From: Blepharisma japonicum
Taxonomy: Eukaryota > Ciliophora > Heterotrichea > Heterotrichida > Blepharismidae
Assembly: GCA_949751835.1 (NCBI GenBank)
Contig: CATKHK010000056.1
Location: 1 to 64,000 of the forward strand
DNA: 64,000 nucleotides
Reading direction: 5' to 3'
Within the stretch, counting starts at the first letter, position 1. Each line of letters starts with the position of its first letter. Shown in pieces: positions 4,323 to 23,428 of the stretch. Under the pieces are notes generated by a model. The model searched no databases. It worked only from the letters and a program-made list of their open reading frames with translations, and had not been told where the DNA came from. Both the position numbers and the translations under genes were made by a program.

Positions 4323-7300
4323 ATGGTTGAGAAAATTGGAATTTTATGTTTTACACTCATTCTTGGTGCCTTTATGACGTTTCATGGAGTCACAGGTGAT
4401 AATATTTCTGAATTAGAAGATCTTCAGAATCTTCGAGTCGCAGCTAACACAGGAGGGGTTTTTTACCTTAATGACTGAATTCAAGGTAAAAATCTAACTT
4501 ATGGTCTAAGCGGGGAATTCATCAATAACACTACAGCTGAATTTCCCCATTTATCCCAAGGAATAACCTTGGCTGGCTCAGTTAATAAAAATCAAAGCAT
4601 CACATCAGCAAACAGTTTTGAGTTAATAGGTCGAGATCCTAATAATCCAGGTACCATTTTCATTATAGAAGATAATAATTTAACTCTCTGGGACATTTCT
4701 GATCCTTCAGCTCCACAAATAATTACTTCATACCAGCCTCCTTTCCAATCAAGTATAATTACCTCGGTTCCATACTCAAATGGAGTTATTAGTGTTTGTG
4801 CGGTATTACAACCTACTCCAGCAGGTTTCAAAGCAGGTCTTATCAATGTTACAGACTATGAAGCGATCAATTACTTATCTGACATAAGTGTTACAATTAC
4901 ATCTAAGGGAAACATCATTGGCGCAAGTGTTTATGGCTTGGACAACGACATTTGGCATGCTGTTATCCTTTCTGATTCAGACTATCAAATTATGATTTTC
5001 CATTACAATTTGACGTCATTGTCTGCTGAACTTTTCAACCAGATAAATGGAAGCGTAGTTGAGGAGAAGCAATTCAACCCAATAACTGTCACTTTTAGTG
5101 ACACTGAAGGTTACATTTGTGACCAAATAAATGGAGTTTATCAGTTTCAGCTTGCAAATTTCCTCTCAGCTCCAAATAAGCCCCTTGTGATCACATCTCT
5201 ACTGGCAGACCCAACAGATTTTGGAGAGATCTTTTCATGCTATTTACAAGCTAACACTTTATATGTTGGAACTGCTTCTGGAATAATTTTATATGATCTA
5301 CCAGGACTTTCCTATATAAAGAAGCTTGCAAGATATCAAGATCCATCTCAACCCTATATACTAAGCAATCTTCCAAGAATCAGTACGTATCCTTCCGAGC
5401 TTATAACTGGCTACTATGTAATTGATGCAAATACTGTGACTTTCCGAGTTTCATATTTAAATGGAGAGCTTTATGAAAATCTGCTATTTGACATTCCAGT
5501 TAATGAACTTTTTTACGATGACTCAAATAATGACACAACTCCTCCTTACATTATTGCTTACAATGTCGATACTGATTTTTATTACATTATTTTTAGCACA
5601 TCAAATTATCTGCTTTCATATGAAATTGATACAAATCCAACGATCACCTTTTTTGCAAGCAACTCAGGCTATGCCTTTAATGGAACACTCGATGTCTGGA
5701 ACTCTTTTAACCAGATTTCTCCAAATGTAAGTATTGAAGGTGTAGATCCCAGAGATTACACAATCTATACATGGAGAGGAAACTCAGCAGCAGATGGATT
5801 TTTGAACCCTGAAACTATTGAGCTCTACACAGAAATTAACATAACACATCTTAACCAGGTTTTCTATCTTCCACTGACTAACTACTTCTCTGGACAGGAC
5901 TTGAGTTATCAAATGTATCTAAGTGACCCTATTGATGGATGTGAAGTCAATATTATCATGCCTCCAAAGAGTAAACTTATTTCTTCAATCCAGGTCACAA
6001 CAGCAGGGTACTCGCCAGTCGTTATATCAGATTTTGATGATCGATTGAGGGTAATTGTGGTTGTCCCAAGCTCTACGTCTTATGCGTATCTTTATTCATC
6101 AAGCAATGAAGGAACCTTTTTGCAATCTACGCTAAAGTGTTCAGATACCTCTAAGACTGCCACTCTTGCTACTACGTTTGACTTTGAAGATAAATATATC
6201 CTAATTGAGTGCTCATCCCAAAATGTAAATACTGGACTGTTTAATGTGGACTGGGATTTCTATGTTCTCTATACTGATTATACAGTTTCCTACTTGAATA
6301 CCATTTCATACACCCAAACTTTATTTTCCGAGAAAATTGGTTTAGTGTGTGATTTTTTCTATGCTTCCAAAGGCAATCAAATTCAGCTATTCAATATGAC
6401 AGTAGGGTCAAATGCAATAGCTCTGAATCCTCTTCAGACTATTAACAGCGACTCATTAACTGGAATTACAGAATTCACCCCTACTGACATTTCTCCTGAT
6501 AATGAGCTCTGCAATCTTTATGTCTATGATTTGGTCAACGGACTAATATTGGTTTATCTCAAAGATATCACTGAGAAGCAAACTCTGTATGATTATCAGC
6601 TCTTCATTACATTTGGAGACAGAGAAAGCAGTGTTTTTATATCTAATGCCAATGGAAACTTGTTTATTGTTTCTTCAGAAAAAGAAAATCCTTTCAGCAT
6701 ATTTGTTTGCTATGTAAATGAAAATGAACTTATATACGAAAATACTTTGCCAGTAATGCCAGACTGCAGCTACTCTGGACTTTCAGTGACTGATGACTTC
6801 TTACTAGTCTTCTGCCAGAACATTGAACAAAACAAGATTCTTGTGTTCGATTATCACAATCTTTATGCATTTGAAAGTCTTTATACAACTATCAATTTGT
6901 CCCAGGTTGGAAGTATATCAGCAGTTAATACAGACAAGAACCTTCTCTTCGTTTATTCTGGGCAGTACCTTAGCACCTATACTATTGGCCAAGTTTCCGA
7001 TTATATTTCTCTTTATCAGCACTCCTATATGCTACCTTACTTTACTGGGATTTCAACTTGGGCTCTTTTGGAATTCAATTTCACCCAAGTCCCAGAAGAA
7101 AATGTATCAGGCGACTTCAAGCTTATTGCAAAAAATGGATATTATTCTGATTCTGCGACTATCACCTTTACTTTCTTGTCCAGAGGTACAGTAATTGAAC
7201 TAAATGATAGATTCGACATCGAAAACTCAGTTCTGACCTCAGGGGACAAGGTAAAAGTTATTGATGCTCAATTTACAACCCCGATCCCAATGTCAGCGTT

Positions 7301-8831
7301 TATAGGCAATAATATAGAATTTGGCCTTGTGTATTCAAATAGCACTAGAATCGACCCAACAGATTACTGCAATTCAGGCCAGCCTATATGCATTCTAGGG
7401 AAATATTCTATGGGTGAAACCTTGACATACAATAACTTAACTACTTTTGCCTATGATATGGTCAGCTATGGAGAAATTCTTTATGTTTCTATACCAAATC
7501 ATATTCTTTCTTATAATACCAGTGAGTCACCTAACAAATTATTAGAAGTCTACAATCTCGCAGATATCAACCAATCGTATCTCACTTCCTGTTATAAAAT
7601 CCATACAGTAGAAGGGTATCCTCAGCTTTTAATTATGTCATGTGAGGTTTTTGCAAAATCCTCATCAACTTATGGGAATACTTACTTGATAACATGGAAT
7701 CTTACAGATTTTTCTTCAGGATTTCCAATACCATCAGCATATCCTGCTTATATGATTGAGTCTGTTGTTGATAGCTCACAACCTTACCCATTAGTGTTTG
7801 TGTTTGATGGAGAGGACTTAAAGATCTATCAACTCGTTAAACAAGGGACAGTGTATGAATTAAATACTTATTTCACTTTGGATGCAGAGTCATTGGATTT
7901 AAATCAGTTTTATTTGACTTCAATTATATACACAAGTCCTTCGGAGCTGATTTTGATTGAAGAAAGTGCAGGATTTCTTTGGCTCAAAACCAACAATTTG
8001 CCTCCAAATCCAGTTTTCTACGACTTGGTAAGCGTTATTTCATTTGAGTCGCTAATTGCTGACTATGGAGACCTACACTTCATGTCTGCTGTTCTGCTGA
8101 GTGATAATATGACTGTCATTGCTACAGAATATCAAGGGGACGCATATATTTTCCGCTTGGGAGACATGGACATCAATTTCATCAAGCAAATCCCATCTAT
8201 AAACGTAGAAAACGCCTACTGGATTAATTCTTTGGTAGCAATTGAGAGCTTGCAACTTTTTGCTTATCCCTATTTCAATTCAATAACTGACCAAACTTTT
8301 CTAAGAGTCGTCAATTATTCCCAGCCAAATAACAATGCAATTTATACTGAGATCCCACTTGGCTCTCTGTATCCTGAGTCCAGTAATGCTAATTTCCTCA
8401 GTGCAAGAATTATACTCGGAAACTCTGGAAAATATGGGACAGTGGAAATCATTTTGATGGTGCAAACACTCATAGACAGCACTGCTGAAATTATGAGCGC
8501 AACATTGAGGACGCTCCCACTTGTCATTTATAATCCAATCGAGCGCGAGGACTCTGAGACTTTACAGCTAGAAGCAAGTATTGAAGATTCAGGGTCAAGA
8601 GAATCTTTAGGAACAGCTAAAGTTGAGTTTTCTCCTAAAGGCTCAACTCCAAGTAAAGATGGGAGCAGCAGCAGCTCAGAATGATACAAAAAATGGTGGG
8701 TTTGGCTGGCTATTGGTCTTGGTATACTTCTTTTTATATCGATTGGAGTTTTCACGTACATTTATATCAGCAAGAGAAAGATAAAGAACAGATATGAGAA
8801 TATGATTGAAAGCGCAACACTAAACTCATAA
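4323..8831 (+). CDS. large type I membrane protein with a beta-propeller-like ectodomain
   Basis: A single exon of 1502 codons. Residues 1-25 form a signal peptide (I-G-I-L-C-F-T-L-I-L-G-A core). The ectodomain of about 1430 residues is rich in Asn, Ser, Thr, Tyr and Asn-x-Ser/Thr sequons and poor in Lys and Cys; it repeats short hydrophobic-Tyr/Phe strands about every 45-50 residues, as beta-propellers do. One transmembrane helix near residue 1460 (LAIGLGILLFISIGVF) is followed by a short basic cytosolic tail. The two TGA codons outside the long open stretch fall near the N-terminus and just before the helix, and both must be Trp to add the signal and anchor. I cannot name a family; an outward-facing adhesion or receptor role is inference. 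Confidence 0.85.
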
Positions 8832-17109: not shown

Positions 17110-18135
17110 ATGGAAAACTTAAATATTTTCAAAAGCAATACACCTAATCACAGGCATGCCTCCAAAAGTATGAGAATCTACACAAACAATCACGAAATTC
17201 AATGCTCTTGCTACTCTGAATCTAGAGGCTTTATTACCCGCAAGTATTTGCAGTTTATTCCACGGCATTCATTACTTTCATGCCCTCGAGCAGCAATGTG
17301 GCTTTCTAAGTGTGGTCCTCCTAGAAATGCTGATGAAATCTATCAAGACTTATTGGAAAGTAATTTCGAAACCCCACAGTATCTAGCAAGTGTAAAGCAA
17401 ATTGAGCTCGACTTAAATCGAACTTTTCCTGATGAAAATTATTTCTCAAATAAATCGAAAGGCAAAGAAGCCTTGAGAAGGGTGCTATTAGCATTCAGCA
17501 AATACGACCATGTACTCGGCTATGTGCAAGGAATGAACTTTATCGTAGCTGCCTTATTATGACACTCCAGTGAGGTAGATGCTTTCTGGCTGTTTATCGG
17601 GCTCATGGAAGAATTTGAACTGCGCGATATTTATTTGCCCGCACTTCCTGGACTTTCTAAGCACTGCCAGATAATTCAGCTGATTTGTTTGGATTTATTA
17701 CCAAGGCTGCATACACACTTTGCAGAGCACAGGATAACTAGCGAAATGTACGCAGCTGAATGGTGTTTTACACTATTCGGAAGCGTGGTGCCTGTGAGAG
17801 AAATGGTGAACATCTTGGAGCAGTTCTTTATGAAAGGGTGAAGCTTTTTTTATAGAATTGTGATTGTGCTGTTAGGATGCCTTGAAGAGCAGCTCTTAGC
17901 AGCTGATGATCCCATTGAAATTCTGGGACAGCTAAAGATCTGCCACCAGTCTCAAAAAGAATGGAAGAGCTTCATGGCTGTGCTGGATGGAGGAAAGCGC
18001 AAGCTGGAATGGAGCGAACTGATTGAAAGAGCAATGAATTTAGATTTAGATGATGATTATATAAAATTCTTACATAGAAATTTTAATGCTGATACAAGAC
18101 AGTTTTCTTTGAGAAAGAAACACAATAATGTATAA
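17110..18135 (+). CDS. TBC-domain Rab GTPase-activating protein
   Basis: 341 residues. The catalytic motifs are complete: I-E-L-D-L-N-R-T-F-P (arginine finger in motif B, about residue 99) and Y-V-Q-G-M-N (glutamine finger in motif C, about residue 141). Both fingers act in trans to speed GTP hydrolysis on Rab proteins. TGA codons at 17560-17562 and 17839-17841 are Trp. The domain starts within the first 60 residues and fills most of the protein, with no PH or other accessory part, so this is a minimal TBC protein. A Rab5-like GTPase is encoded elsewhere in the window but nothing links the two. Confidence 0.93.
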
Positions 18136-18235: not shown

Positions 18236-21200
18236 TTAAAAGAAGAAGAAACTACTAGTTGTGCTAGTTGTATCACTTGGCTGTGATGGTTGAGATGATG
18301 ATGATGATGGAGATGAGGATGAAGTGTCATTTGAAGATGATGTTTGGTTTACCAGCCATTCGTCATAGTCATCCATGTCGTAATTATTAGCCAAATCGAG
18401 TTCAGAAGCAATTTCAACAAAGACATTGCTATCCAGTTCCATGAAATCAAGATCATTAAATTCAGCAGATAAGTCATAATCGTTCTCTAAGAATGAAATG
18501 CCTGTGCCAGCCCAATCCATGTTGTAGTCATTACTACTCCAAACTCCTCCTGAAGTTGAACCTTGATTACCATACATTCCTGAAGAAGTTGTATCTGCGC
18601 CTAAACCCTGAGAATATCCTTGATTATTGCCCATTCCTCCTTGAGAGCCACCATTTGAAGATCCGCTTTGCCCTTGCTGAGATGAACATCCAGCATTTTG
18701 GCATCCTCCCTGGCTTGTGCTGCATCCTTGGCCTGTACAGCCTCCTTGAGTGCTTGAGTTACTTCCGCATCCAGGATTTGAGCAGCCTCCTTGGGACCCA
18801 GTATTTGATCCTTCTACATTTGTAGATCCACTGTTTCCAGAAGATCCACCTGCATTATCGCATTTTCCTCCACATCCAGTGCATGAGCCACCTTGTGCTC
18901 CACAATTTGAGCAGTTAGATCCTTGTGCTCCTGAATTATTGCATTTTCCATCGCATCCAGCATTAGAACAGCCACACCCTTGCGATCCTGAGTTGTTGAC
19001 TCCAGAGTTATTTGTGGAACCACTATTTCCTCCAGGACAATTTGGATTACTGCATGAGCCACCTTTATTGCAGCCTGCACATGTTTGGCTTCCGCAGCCG
19101 CAGGTGTTGGCTGTTGTTCCTGTATTTCCAATTCCTGAGTTTGAGCCTACATTTCCTGAGAAGCCTTGATAATCTTCTATAAAAATAGTTCCGCTTGTTC
19201 TACCTCCAGAACTGTTGCCAATTGAACTTCCAGAATTTGCGCCGGAATTATTATCGCCCATTGTATTCATTCCTGATCCATAATTTCCTTGGCTGTTTGT
19301 TCCAGAGCTTCCTTGTCCCTGGCTACCACCCATAGTATTCATTCCTGATCCATAAGTTCCTTGGTTGCTTGATCCAGAGCTTCCTTGTTGGCCTTGGCTA
19401 CCGCCCATAGTATTCATTCCTGTTCCATAAGTTCCTTGGTTGCTTGATCCAGAGCTTCCTTGTTGTCCTTGGCTACCGCTCATAGTATTCATTCCTGTTC
19501 CATAAGTTCCTTGGCTGCTTGACCCAGAGTTTCCTTGCTGTCCTTGGCTACCACCCATAGTATTCATTCCTGTTCCATAAGTTCCTTGGTTGCTTGACCC
19601 AGAGCTTCCTTGTTGACCATTCATTTGACTACCATTAGTATTCATTCCTGACCCAGAGCTTCCTTGTTGACCGTTCATTTGGCCACCCATAGTATTCATT
19701 CCTGTTCCATAAGTTCCTTGGTTGCTTGATCCAGAATTTCCTTGTTGGCCAGTCATAGTATTCATTCCTGTTCCATAATTTCCTTGGTCTTGGCTGCTCA
19801 TTCCAGAGTTTCCCTGTTGTCCACTCATTGTATCAGATTCGACATTTCCTTGCTGGCCATCCATTGTATTTATTCCTGAGCCTCTGAAATTTTGTAAAAA
19901 CCAAACTCCCTGATTTTTAGTATTTCCTCCTTGACAATTTTTACCTTCGCATCCTGATTGATTTCCTCCAGTTGAACCGCTACTACCATGATTAGAACCA
20001 CAGTTTTCTCCTTGAGATTTATCATTTCCGGACTGGCCTCCTGAAATATTTCCAGTTGAGCCATAGCTACCTCCTTGAGAATTATCATTTCCAGATTGAC
20101 ATCCTTCAACATTTCCTATTGAGCCAGTATTACCCCCTTGTGAATTACAGCCAGATCCTTGCTGAGATCCACCAACACTTCCAGTTGAGCCATAGTTTCC
20201 GCTTTGTGAAGAGTTATCATTTCCAGATCCTCCAACGTTTCCAGATGAGCCACAATTTCCTCCTTGTAGGCTTCCTCCAACACTCCCAGATGAACCACAG
20301 TTTCCTCCTTGCGGGCATCCTCCAACATTTCCAGTTGAGCCAGAGTTTCCTCCTTGCTGGCTATTTCCTCCTCCAACATTTCCAGATCCTGAGCCGCTAT
20401 AATTAGAACTTCCTCCAGCATTATTAGTTCCACAATTGGCATTATTTCCACTTGTTGTAGAGCTTCCTTGCCCTCCAGATGTTGTGCATCCTACTTGATT
20501 AGGCTCTGTTTCTAAGAATGTAGTGCTTGAAGTTGTTTGAGAAGAGGATTCTGAATTGCCTGATTCAGTATTTTGCTGAGATCCTGCATTTTGGCTTGAT
20601 GACTGAGAAGCTGTTTGTCCTGAACTTGAAGGTTGGGTAGAAGTGGATGTAGTTTGTCCACATGCTGATCCTTGAGAAGAGCTTCCACTAGAAGATGGCT
20701 GGCTTTGAGTTGATGTGGATTGAGTACTATATTGTCCGGAAGACCCTCCTTGAGTTGGTTGCTGATTGCTAATACTACTTTGGCTTGATGATCCGCTTTG
20801 AGATGGCTGCTGATTGCTAGTACTACTTTGGCCTGATGATCCGCTTTGAGATGGCTGCTGATTGCTAGTACTACTTTGGCTTGATGATCCGCTTTGAGTT
20901 GGTTGCTGATTGCTAGTACTACTTTGGCCTGATGATCCGCTTTGAGTTGGTTGCTGATTGCTAGTACTACTTTGGCCTGATGATCCGCTTTGAGATGGCT
21001 GCTGATTGCTAGTACTACTTTGGCTTGATGATCCGCTTTGAGTTGGCTGCTGATTGCTAGTACTACTTTGGCCTGATGATCCGCTTTGAGATGGCTGCTG
21101 ATTGCTAGTACTACTTTGGCTTGATGATCCGCTTTGAGATGGCTGTTGATTACTAGTATTACTTTGACCTGATGATCCTCCTTGAGTTGGCTGTTGATTG

Positions 21201-21859
21201 CTAGTATTACTTTGGCTTGATGATCCTCCTTGAGTTGATTGCTGACTGCCAGTATTCATTTGGCCTGATGATCCACATTGAGATGGTTGCTGATTGCCAG
21301 TATAACTTTGGCCTGATGATCCACCTTGATTTGGCTGTTGATTTCCAGTATTACTTTGGCCAGATGATCCACTTTGATTAGGCTGTTGATTTCCATAATT
21401 TTGCTGGCCTAATACTCCACTTGACCCAGTTTGTTGACTTCCTCCAGAGTATTGATTATCTTTTCCTCCTTGCTGTTTAGTTTGCTGGCTTCCTCCGTAG
21501 TTTTGCCCTCCGTTTTGCTGTCCAGAAGTCGTTGATTGTTTTTGATTATTCTGACCAGAAGATTGTGAATCAGTTTTCCCTTGCTGCCCTGAAGTGTTTC
21601 CAGATTCTGAGCCAGAACCAGTTGGAACTGTTGAGCCTGTGTTTGAAGATTGCGATTCTCCTGAACTTCACATTCCAGATTTTCCATCGGTGTCTTCTAT
21701 TTGTAAGAATGATTTCTTTTTACCGACACCGGTGGTTCTTCCTTTTTCCAGGAAACTAATTCCTTGATCATCTGATAAGGGAGTCATGAAGTTTTGCTCT
21801 GCTTGAGTTGCAATGCAATAAGCAGATGCGATTAGAATACAAAGGATTGCAGGCTGCAT
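18236..21859 (-). CDS. secreted Ser/Gly/Gln/Asn-rich tandem-repeat protein
   Basis: 1207 residues in one exon, with TGA at 21668-21670 as Trp 64. Residues 1-20 are a signal peptide. The rest is low complexity in blocks: a 16-residue S-N-Q-Q-P-[ST]-Q-S-G-S-S repeat (about residues 153-378), a G-N-V-G-G / G-G-N-C-G-S-S region (about 480-620), a 25-residue G-T-Y-G-T-G-M-N-T-M-G-G repeat (about 690-870), a Cys-rich Gly region (about 910-1080), and an acidic end with Asp/Glu and a poly-Ser, poly-Phe tail. Hydrophobic residues are nearly absent except in short F-[LIMV]-[EQ] motifs near residues 36, 51, 446, 652, 890, 1120 and two in the acidic end. This fits a secreted matrix, cyst-wall or extrusome protein; the exact role is unknown. 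GC looks higher than in neighbouring genes. Confidence 0.87.
19256..19790 (-). repeat. 75-bp tandem repeat, about 7-8 units
   Basis: Copies of the G-M-N-T-M coding block start at 19331, 19406, 19481 and 19556, exactly 75 bases apart, each giving 25 residues. Units further upstream in the protein are shortened or altered. Confidence 0.88.
20727..21398 (-). repeat. 48-bp tandem repeat, about 14 units
   Basis: Inside the secreted repeat protein, units of exactly 48 bases encode 16 residues each (S-N-Q-Q-P-[ST]-Q-S-G-S-S-[GS]-Q-S-S-T). The middle units are almost identical at the DNA level and the outer ones diverge, as expected of recent unequal exchange within the array. Confidence 0.9.
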
Positions 21860-22318: not shown

Positions 22319-23428
22319 TTAAGATTTCTTTATAGGGCATATCATAACCATATCATGCGTAAAAGACCCAATTATAAAAGTATTGTTTTTAGCTGCAGCA
22401 ACACTCATCGACATTTTGTTTTGCATTAGCATATTCCTTTTGCTGATATCTCCAATTGTAAGATTCAGTTTATATATTCCGCTGGATAGCTCAGGATTCT
22501 TCATGCTTTTAAGTTTTTGCATGAAATCAGCGAATTCAGAGAATTTCATAAATCCTGCAACGTACAAAACGTTTGCCTCATCCGAAAGTTCAATATTATC
22601 AGGATGAAATAATACATTAAAAGTCTCAATGAATTTAAGCGATCTATCTTCTGTTATATTATACGCAATGATTTGCTTTAAAACAGTCTCTGAAACATAA
22701 AGCGTGTTTCCTAAAATGTTGATACCATTGTAGAAGTTACTCTTATCTTGCGATTTGCAATCGGCTTTACCGTTCACATTCTTGCAGAAATACAAATTGC
22801 AGCTTTTAGTAAACTGCATTGTATAAACCATCTTGGCTTGGTGCCAGCCTGAAAGATCTAAACCTTCAGGAGATTCAGTATAGTGCATAGACTGAGTGAT
22901 GTAAAATTCGTCTTCATCAATCACTGCTAAGTCATTAAATTTAGCTATGAATTCATCATCAAAGACTATAGACCTTAAATAGGTTGCTTCTATCTTTCCT
23001 TCACTTTCTTGGAGCTTGAAAACTTCTACTCTTTCTCCCCCTCTATTAAACGCGTGGTTTATCACATATAAAGTTTCATTTTTGAATAAAAATAGTCCAT
23101 GGGGATGAAATCCTATTTCTTTGGGAAAATTATGGATTGGAATTTCATATGTACTTTTACTCTCTATGTCTATTGCCAATAATCTGCCTTCTTTTCTTTT
23201 ACTTGCAGCAAAAGACTCTATAAATAAAGGAATTCTGTCATCTTCTCCTCCAATAGCAATATTTCCATAGAATGTAATATCTTCTAATGAGCCATTTGTT
23301 TGAATTGTTTCGCAGTCTTCATAATTATGATATGAAGGAAGGATGAAAAAATCCATAGTATTGCAAATCACGTAAATGATTCAGCTAAAGCTTAGCATAA
23401 TCAAGCTCAGTAATACTAGTCTCGGCAT
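22319..23428 (-). CDS. paraoxonase/arylesterase-like Ca2+ enzyme
   Basis: 369 residues starting with an uncleaved-looking hydrophobic anchor (residues 3-25, TGA = Trp 16), as in animal PON proteins. The landmarks of the six-bladed propeller are in order: G-S-L-E-D-I (Ca2+ ligands), P-H-G-L (active-site His), V-I-N-H-A-F (second His of the dyad), K-F-N-D-L-A (Asn ligand), Y-N-G-I-N-I (Asn ligand) and H-P-D-N-I-E-L (Asp-Asn ligands). With the His dyad and calcium ligands kept, hydrolysis of lactones or aryl esters is likely; the physiological substrate is unknown. The anchor plus several Cys suggests a secretory-pathway or surface location. The ATG at 23426-23428 is chosen because it supplies the anchor. 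Confidence 0.88.

Follow-up and report, generated by a model that had tools for sequence, protein, structure and literature searches.

A secreted repeat protein of Blepharisma japonicum with F-[LIMV]-[EQ] motifs near its module borders, a possible protease-cleaved precursor

The locus and the architecture of the protein

The window analysed here, a stretch of 64,000 nucleotides from the heterotrich ciliate Blepharisma japonicum (positions 1 to 64,000 of contig CATKHK010000056.1, assembly GCA_949751835.1), contains on its minus strand a gene for a repeat-built protein with eight F-[LIMV]-[EQ] motifs. The open reading frame (ORF; 18236..21859 in window coordinates, read from 21859 to 18236) comprises 1207 codons plus the stop and is open only if TGA is read as Trp, its single in-frame TGA being codon 64. 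Two TGA codons need to be read through in the neighbouring gene at 17110-18135, which supports the same code; one of them stands at what is presumably the place of a Trp in TBC-domain proteins, as recognised by eye without a profile. The AT content is 67% over 264 kb of sampled DNA. In the whole genome assembly (45.2 Mb in 224 contigs), telomere repeats of CCCTAACA, searched as three units, gave 77 forward and 91 reverse matches against 0 for the reversed control, and most of the listed places lie near base 1 or, for contigs with known ends, near the contig ends. In Blepharisma stoltei, UGA encodes Trp, the telomeres are of CCCTAACA, the somatic genome of 41 Mbp has 66% AT and the introns are of 15-16 bp (PMC9942806; here and below, papers are cited for the passages that bear on the point). 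The code, telomeres and base composition seen here agree with this, as expected of a Blepharisma-like heterotrich. The ORF contains nine GT..AG words of 15 nt and six of 16 nt, one of which spans the motif at residue 36, and none of these fifteen has the GTA..TAG form. In the sampled DNA the frequency of GT..AG words at 15 and 16 nt is similar to that at adjacent lengths, and they are therefore uninformative on introns in this ORF.

The protein begins with a likely signal peptide, MQPAILCILIASAYCIATQAEQ (residues 1-22, 21794..21859, cleavage point approximate), indicated by inspection and by a hydropathy heuristic, which gives the hydrophobic N-terminus a peak of 2.9 and finds no later membrane span. 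A sequence-only reading of this locus had proposed a secreted, hydrophilic, repeat-built protein with almost no hydrophobic side chains. The signal-like N-terminus, the repeat arrays and the composition (77% Ser, Gly, Gln, Asn and Thr) agree with it, and the scarcity of hydrophobic residues fits the interior, where 14 runs of at least two FILVMW residues are found after residue 22, 8 of them with a motif.

All features that follow lie on the minus strand. Two motifs come soon after the signal peptide, FLE at residues 36-38 (GIS-FLE-KGR, 21746..21754) and FLQ at residues 51-53 (KKKS-FLQ-IED, 21701..21709). The first large module includes 14 in-register units of 16 residues, NQQPxQxGSSxQSxTS (residues 157-380, 20720..21391), and is followed by FLE at residues 448-450 (SSTT-FLE-TEP, 20510..20518). 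A Gly/Ser/Asn-rich module with 10 Cys (residues 451-653, 19901..20509) then extends to FLQ at residues 654-656 (GVW-FLQ-NFR, 19892..19900), and a GMNTM repeat module with 0 Cys (residues 657-892, 19184..19891) to FIE at residues 893-895 (GTI-FIE-DYQ, 19175..19183). The Cys-rich module (residues 896-1122, 18494..19174), with 21 Cys within residues 920 to 1058, is closed by FLE at residues 1123-1125 (GIS-FLE-NDY, 18485..18493), whose hexapeptide GISFLE is identical to that of the residue 36 site. The acidic tail (residues 1126-1172, 18344..18484) contains FME at residues 1139-1141 (18437..18445) and FVE at residues 1147-1149 (18413..18421), and precedes a Ser/Thr-rich C-terminus (residues 1173-1207, 18239..18343).

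The eight sites are those described in the sequence-only reading, although its positions for four of them (446, 652, 890 and 1120) were 2-3 residues too low. Its spacing of about 200-240 residues for the middle motifs holds, the gaps being 206, 239 and 230 residues.

The repeat arrays are under mild constraint only: the ratio of nonsynonymous to synonymous differences (pN/pS) is 0.44 across the 14 units of the 16-residue array and 0.74 across the 4 units of a 25-residue array, the units being mutually non-independent. The 21 Cys of the 139-residue stretch at 18686-19102 show C-x-C and C-x2-C spacing, a pattern that could serve disulfide cross-linking or metal binding of a metallothionein-like kind. 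At the very C-terminus (18239-18250), the Ser/Thr-rich stretch ends in four Phe; a glycosylphosphatidylinositol-type tail is not evident by eye.

Motif excess and its relation to module borders

The excess of the motif is real and non-random. The sequence-only reading had itself pointed to shuffled sequence as the comparison that could overturn it; composition shuffles contained at most 4 motifs in 50,000 runs (at most 3 in a separate set of 20,000), far below the 8 observed. A first-order Markov chain, which was trained on the protein itself and is hence biased towards the motif, reached at least 8 in 17 of 5,000 runs. The comparison with other ORFs used 171 of them, of at least 100 amino acids, longest non-overlapping, from the window and 20 sampled 10-kb stretches (264 kb in all); this set may include chance ORFs, and the first 22 residues were excluded from the motif count. 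In these ORFs the motif was seen 60 times against 67.4 expected from composition. The per-ORF p value is 5.5e-12 for this protein and 0.017 for the next best, so that a motif which is ordinary across the other ORFs is striking in this protein alone.

The first and third places of the motif are strongly restricted. Phe occupies the first place in 8 of the 14 occurrences considered, while Tyr (0/22), Trp (0/5), Leu (0/15), Ile (0/12), Val (0/19) and Met (0/28) never do, and E or Q stands third in 8 of the 9 F-[LIVM] pairs, E in six sites and Q in two. This restriction bears on the role that the sequence-only reading had favoured, a sticker-and-spacer design in which the motifs would be uncut hydrophobic contacts in a gel or a phase-separating secreted matrix. 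The share of the hydrophobic runs that carry a motif, the regular interior spacing of 206-239 residues and the flexible polar repeats in between are all consistent with such a design. However, interchangeable stickers would be expected to use Tyr, Trp or aliphatic residues as well as Phe, a simple sticker requires neither a fixed Phe nor a fixed E/Q, and eight contacts in 1185 residues would be few. We regard this role as doubtful and as less likely than the processing sites that the same reading had offered as its alternative, which match aspartic-protease consensus sequences.

The motifs lie at or near module borders, as had also been claimed from the sequence. When the protein is cut at 448, 654 and 893, the composition score between the resulting segments (residues 55-1120, motif residues themselves omitted) is 246.9, compared with a mean of 176.0 for 20,000 random triples, 0.05% of which equal or exceed it; in a Cys-only version of the test the proportion is 0.2%. 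These three cuts are thus near-optimal. A triple shifted by +20 residues, in the C-terminal direction, scores 250.0, slightly above the motif triple, and the precision of the borders is therefore about 20 residues. Greedy composition cutting gave a weaker result than the triple-cut test: with the first six cuts, 3 of the 4 interior motifs fall within 20 residues of a cut (p=0.024); p is 0.066, 0.068 and 0.115 when the first three, four or five are used. Hypothetical cuts after each Phe would yield pieces of 14, 15, 397, 206, 239, 230, 16, 8 and 60 residues, the four large pieces each having a repeat type of its own and, in order, 2, 10, 0 and 21 Cys.

No relatives of the protein were detected in the searches made. 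Pfam gave no match (E up to 0.1), nor did the PDB sequences (E up to 0.01), and in its own genome the full protein, the N-terminal 70 residues, a 76-residue piece from the C-terminal part and a 149-residue piece from the Cys-rich part (E up to 0.001, 10, 10 and 1, in that order) matched the gene itself only, in searches that scored the best candidates only and that distant repeat relatives could escape. One additional weak match to the C-terminal piece, with an E value of 4.57, was rejected as a paralogue, being by inspection a ubiquitin-hydrolase-like protein. A DNA pattern for the 16-residue repeat matched the genome 13 times, each time within this gene, with 0 matches for the control. A GISFLE-type DNA pattern matched at 16 places, compared with 12 for the reversed control; two of the 16 are in this gene, and the translated contexts of the other 14 show, by inspection, none in a secreted repeat ORF. 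The places C136:147-164 and C207:147-164 hold the same 18-mer in the same 57-residue ORF at the same position, and these may be duplicate or alternative contig ends.

The two GISFLE copies near both protein ends, the absence of the other 14 matches from secreted repeat ORFs and the tandem arrays among the modules would suit an origin of the F-h-E/Q linkers (h, hydrophobic) as functionless relics of one ancestral linker, copied as modules were added. By eye, though, the sequences around the eight sites have little in common apart from the two GIS copies, and sites without function would be expected to have lost the fixed Phe and E/Q. An origin as relics is, in our estimate, improbable.

A proposed precursor with predicted cleavage by a pepsin-like aspartic protease

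The best reading of these observations, to which we give a probability of about one half, is that the protein is a secreted precursor with predicted cuts at F-h-E/Q between its modules by a pepsin-like aspartic protease. A protease site needs fixed Phe and E/Q places and a hydrophobic sticker does not. Besides four hydrophilic repeat modules that differ from one another, the precursor, with its signal-like N-terminus, would comprise two short pieces near that end and the acidic tail. The motifs would be recognition sites at which the bond following Phe is cut, as in plasmepsin X cleavage, in a secretory compartment undergoing maturation. The large products, of about 397, 206, 239 and 230 residues, would be released together with short end pieces, and the modules so freed may assemble or gel, the Cys-rich ones via disulfides, into what is perhaps extrusome content or a cyst wall. 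Cleavage, enzyme, organelle and what the product builds are all proposed here from the sequence.

The sites known from apicomplexan parasites are close to those of the ciliate protein. Plasmepsin X takes Phe at P1, a branched residue at P2 with Ser tolerated and a hydrophobic residue at P1', has the consensus SFhE and cuts after Phe, and the consensus of plasmepsin IX is SFLE (PMC9804387). Natural sites, either mapped or inferred from mutants, include SFIQ and SLVQ in the Rh2 proteins (PMC7146544) and NFLD, IALE, SSIE and SDIQ within plasmepsin X (PMC9352755). All eight sites of the ciliate protein present Phe at P1, a hydrophobic residue at P1' and E or Q at P2'. At P2 the residues are, in order, S, S, T, W, I, S, D and V, i.e. 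Ser, which is common in this protein, in 3 of 8 and S/T/V/I in 6 of 8, with W and D elsewhere. The strict form SF-h-E occurs twice, and 0 of 50,000 shuffles contained two or more. The likeness to plasmepsin IX/X substrates therefore lies in a secretory precursor with short F-h-E/Q sites of the SFhE, SFLE and SFIQ kind, cut after Phe in the parasites, whereas those substrates are invasion and egress proteins and the sites of the ciliate protein are known from sequence alone. On this reading the protein would act like a plasmepsin-type precursor; we do not assign it to that group. We know of no plasmepsin IX/X substrate with a comparable repeat make-up.

Toxoplasma and Tetrahymena offer further comparisons. 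The ASP3 substrates ROP1 and ROP13 bear the sites SFVE and SFTE (PMC5595437), and an SFVE motif is also present in RON8, together with three putative sites (PMC2642630); ROP1 and ROP13, which have such sites in common with the ciliate protein, are proteins of an exocytic organelle of an alveolate. A precedent in ciliates is given by the granule (Grl) proproteins of Tetrahymena mucocysts, secretory precursors that are matured by cathepsins (Cth3/Cth4), one of them aspartyl: Cth3 processes them and is named an aspartyl cathepsin in the title of a reference cited there (PMC12752500).

Silk-like, eggshell and cyst-wall proteins resemble the protein in their Ser/Gly/Gln/Asn repeats, a Cys-rich stretch and a signal-like N-terminus. 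The beta/gamma-crystallin domain (PF00030) is a feature of the Grt/Igr mucocyst cargo of Tetrahymena; no Pfam match to it was found in the protein and no PF00030 match in the genome. Pepsin-like enzymes generally accept F-L bonds, so that the site does not identify which of them would act on it.

The genome contains 97 matches to PF00026, the pepsin-like aspartic proteases, exon fragments included, partly in tandem clusters (e.g. C2:563850-569020, C2:909538-915045, C78:15365-36055 and C24:396299-404906). Two proteases, L042 and L045, were compared with the PDB sequences. For L045 (C33:335878-336852), plasmepsin X chains score 131-138 bits and plasmepsins I, II and IV 94-114 bits, which makes it a candidate maturase by sequence likeness. 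L042 is cathepsin D-like, plasmepsin X being outside the best 60 of its 83 matches.

Several observations weigh against cleavage at these sites by such an enzyme. The best PDB matches of L045 are cathepsins E and D, which stand above plasmepsin X. The motif was found ahead of the catalytic domain in 0 of 4 protease ORFs with a pro-region (4 loci of the 97 matches), a fifth ORF in the fetched loci beginning at the catalytic domain. In ROP1 and ROP13 the cut is written after E, unlike the cut after Phe proposed here, and Dogga et al., where they describe ASP3, give it no obvious consensus (PMC5595437). The looser pattern S-phi-X-E, in which the ciliate protein differs from the Toxoplasma substrates, is not enriched in it, the 2 observed being matched by 3,873 of 50,000 shuffles. 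Cuts at 1139 and 1147 would break up the acidic tail, giving fragments of 16 and 8 residues. Finally, 15 further sampled ORFs have a hydrophobic N-terminus by a crude threshold, and in 1 of these the motif falls within residues 20-75; nothing in this small sample points to a pro-region rule that holds across the genome.

That last result bears equally on a role of F-h-E/Q as a repeated luminal signal by which sorting or receptor binding would bring the precursor into a secretory organelle. The motifs that closely follow the signal peptide (36 and 51) and those in the tail (1123-1147) would fit it, and the pro-domain of Toxoplasma ROP1 is sufficient for rhoptry targeting, yet its removal is apparently without effect (PMC5595437). 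A sorting signal leaves the placement near module borders unexplained, however, and the motif is near the N-terminus in only 1 of 15 other sampled candidates; we give it little credence.

The single ORF with the motif in that region, at residue 69, is the adjacent gene at 22319-23428 on the minus strand. It has a hydrophobic N-terminus and F-[LIVM]-[EQ] at 69, 266 and 302 (p=0.032), and its product looks, by eye, like a protein of the SMP-30/arylesterase type. Elsewhere in the window, an ORF of 1502 residues on the plus strand (4323-8831) combines a signal-like N-terminus with a membrane span predicted further along.

Implications for alveolate secretory maturation

Heterotrichs are usually placed near the base of the ciliates, and the exocytic organelles of alveolates (rhoptries, micronemes, mucocysts and trichocysts) are commonly regarded as having one origin. 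Rhoptry exocytosis, for its part, uses machinery with components common to free-living ciliates (PMC9670195). It is conceivable, although in our judgement rather unlikely, that the apicomplexan SFhE maturation code of merozoite secretory-organelle proteins predates the parasites and that a heterotrich cuts a secreted repeat polyprotein into structural blocks with an ASP3/plasmepsin X-like enzyme such as L045. In the literature searched, no title or abstract opening dealt with this protein or with F-h-E sites in ciliates, no query having been aimed exactly at those.

If the sites are uncut, the protein would be one more orphan low-complexity secreted protein. If instead a cleavage code is common to the parasites and this heterotrich, maturation of this kind would be an ancestral step that could be studied outside parasites. 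The code would also provide a sequence rule for finding the precursors of ciliate extrusomes and cyst walls, where orphan repeat proteins escape homology search.

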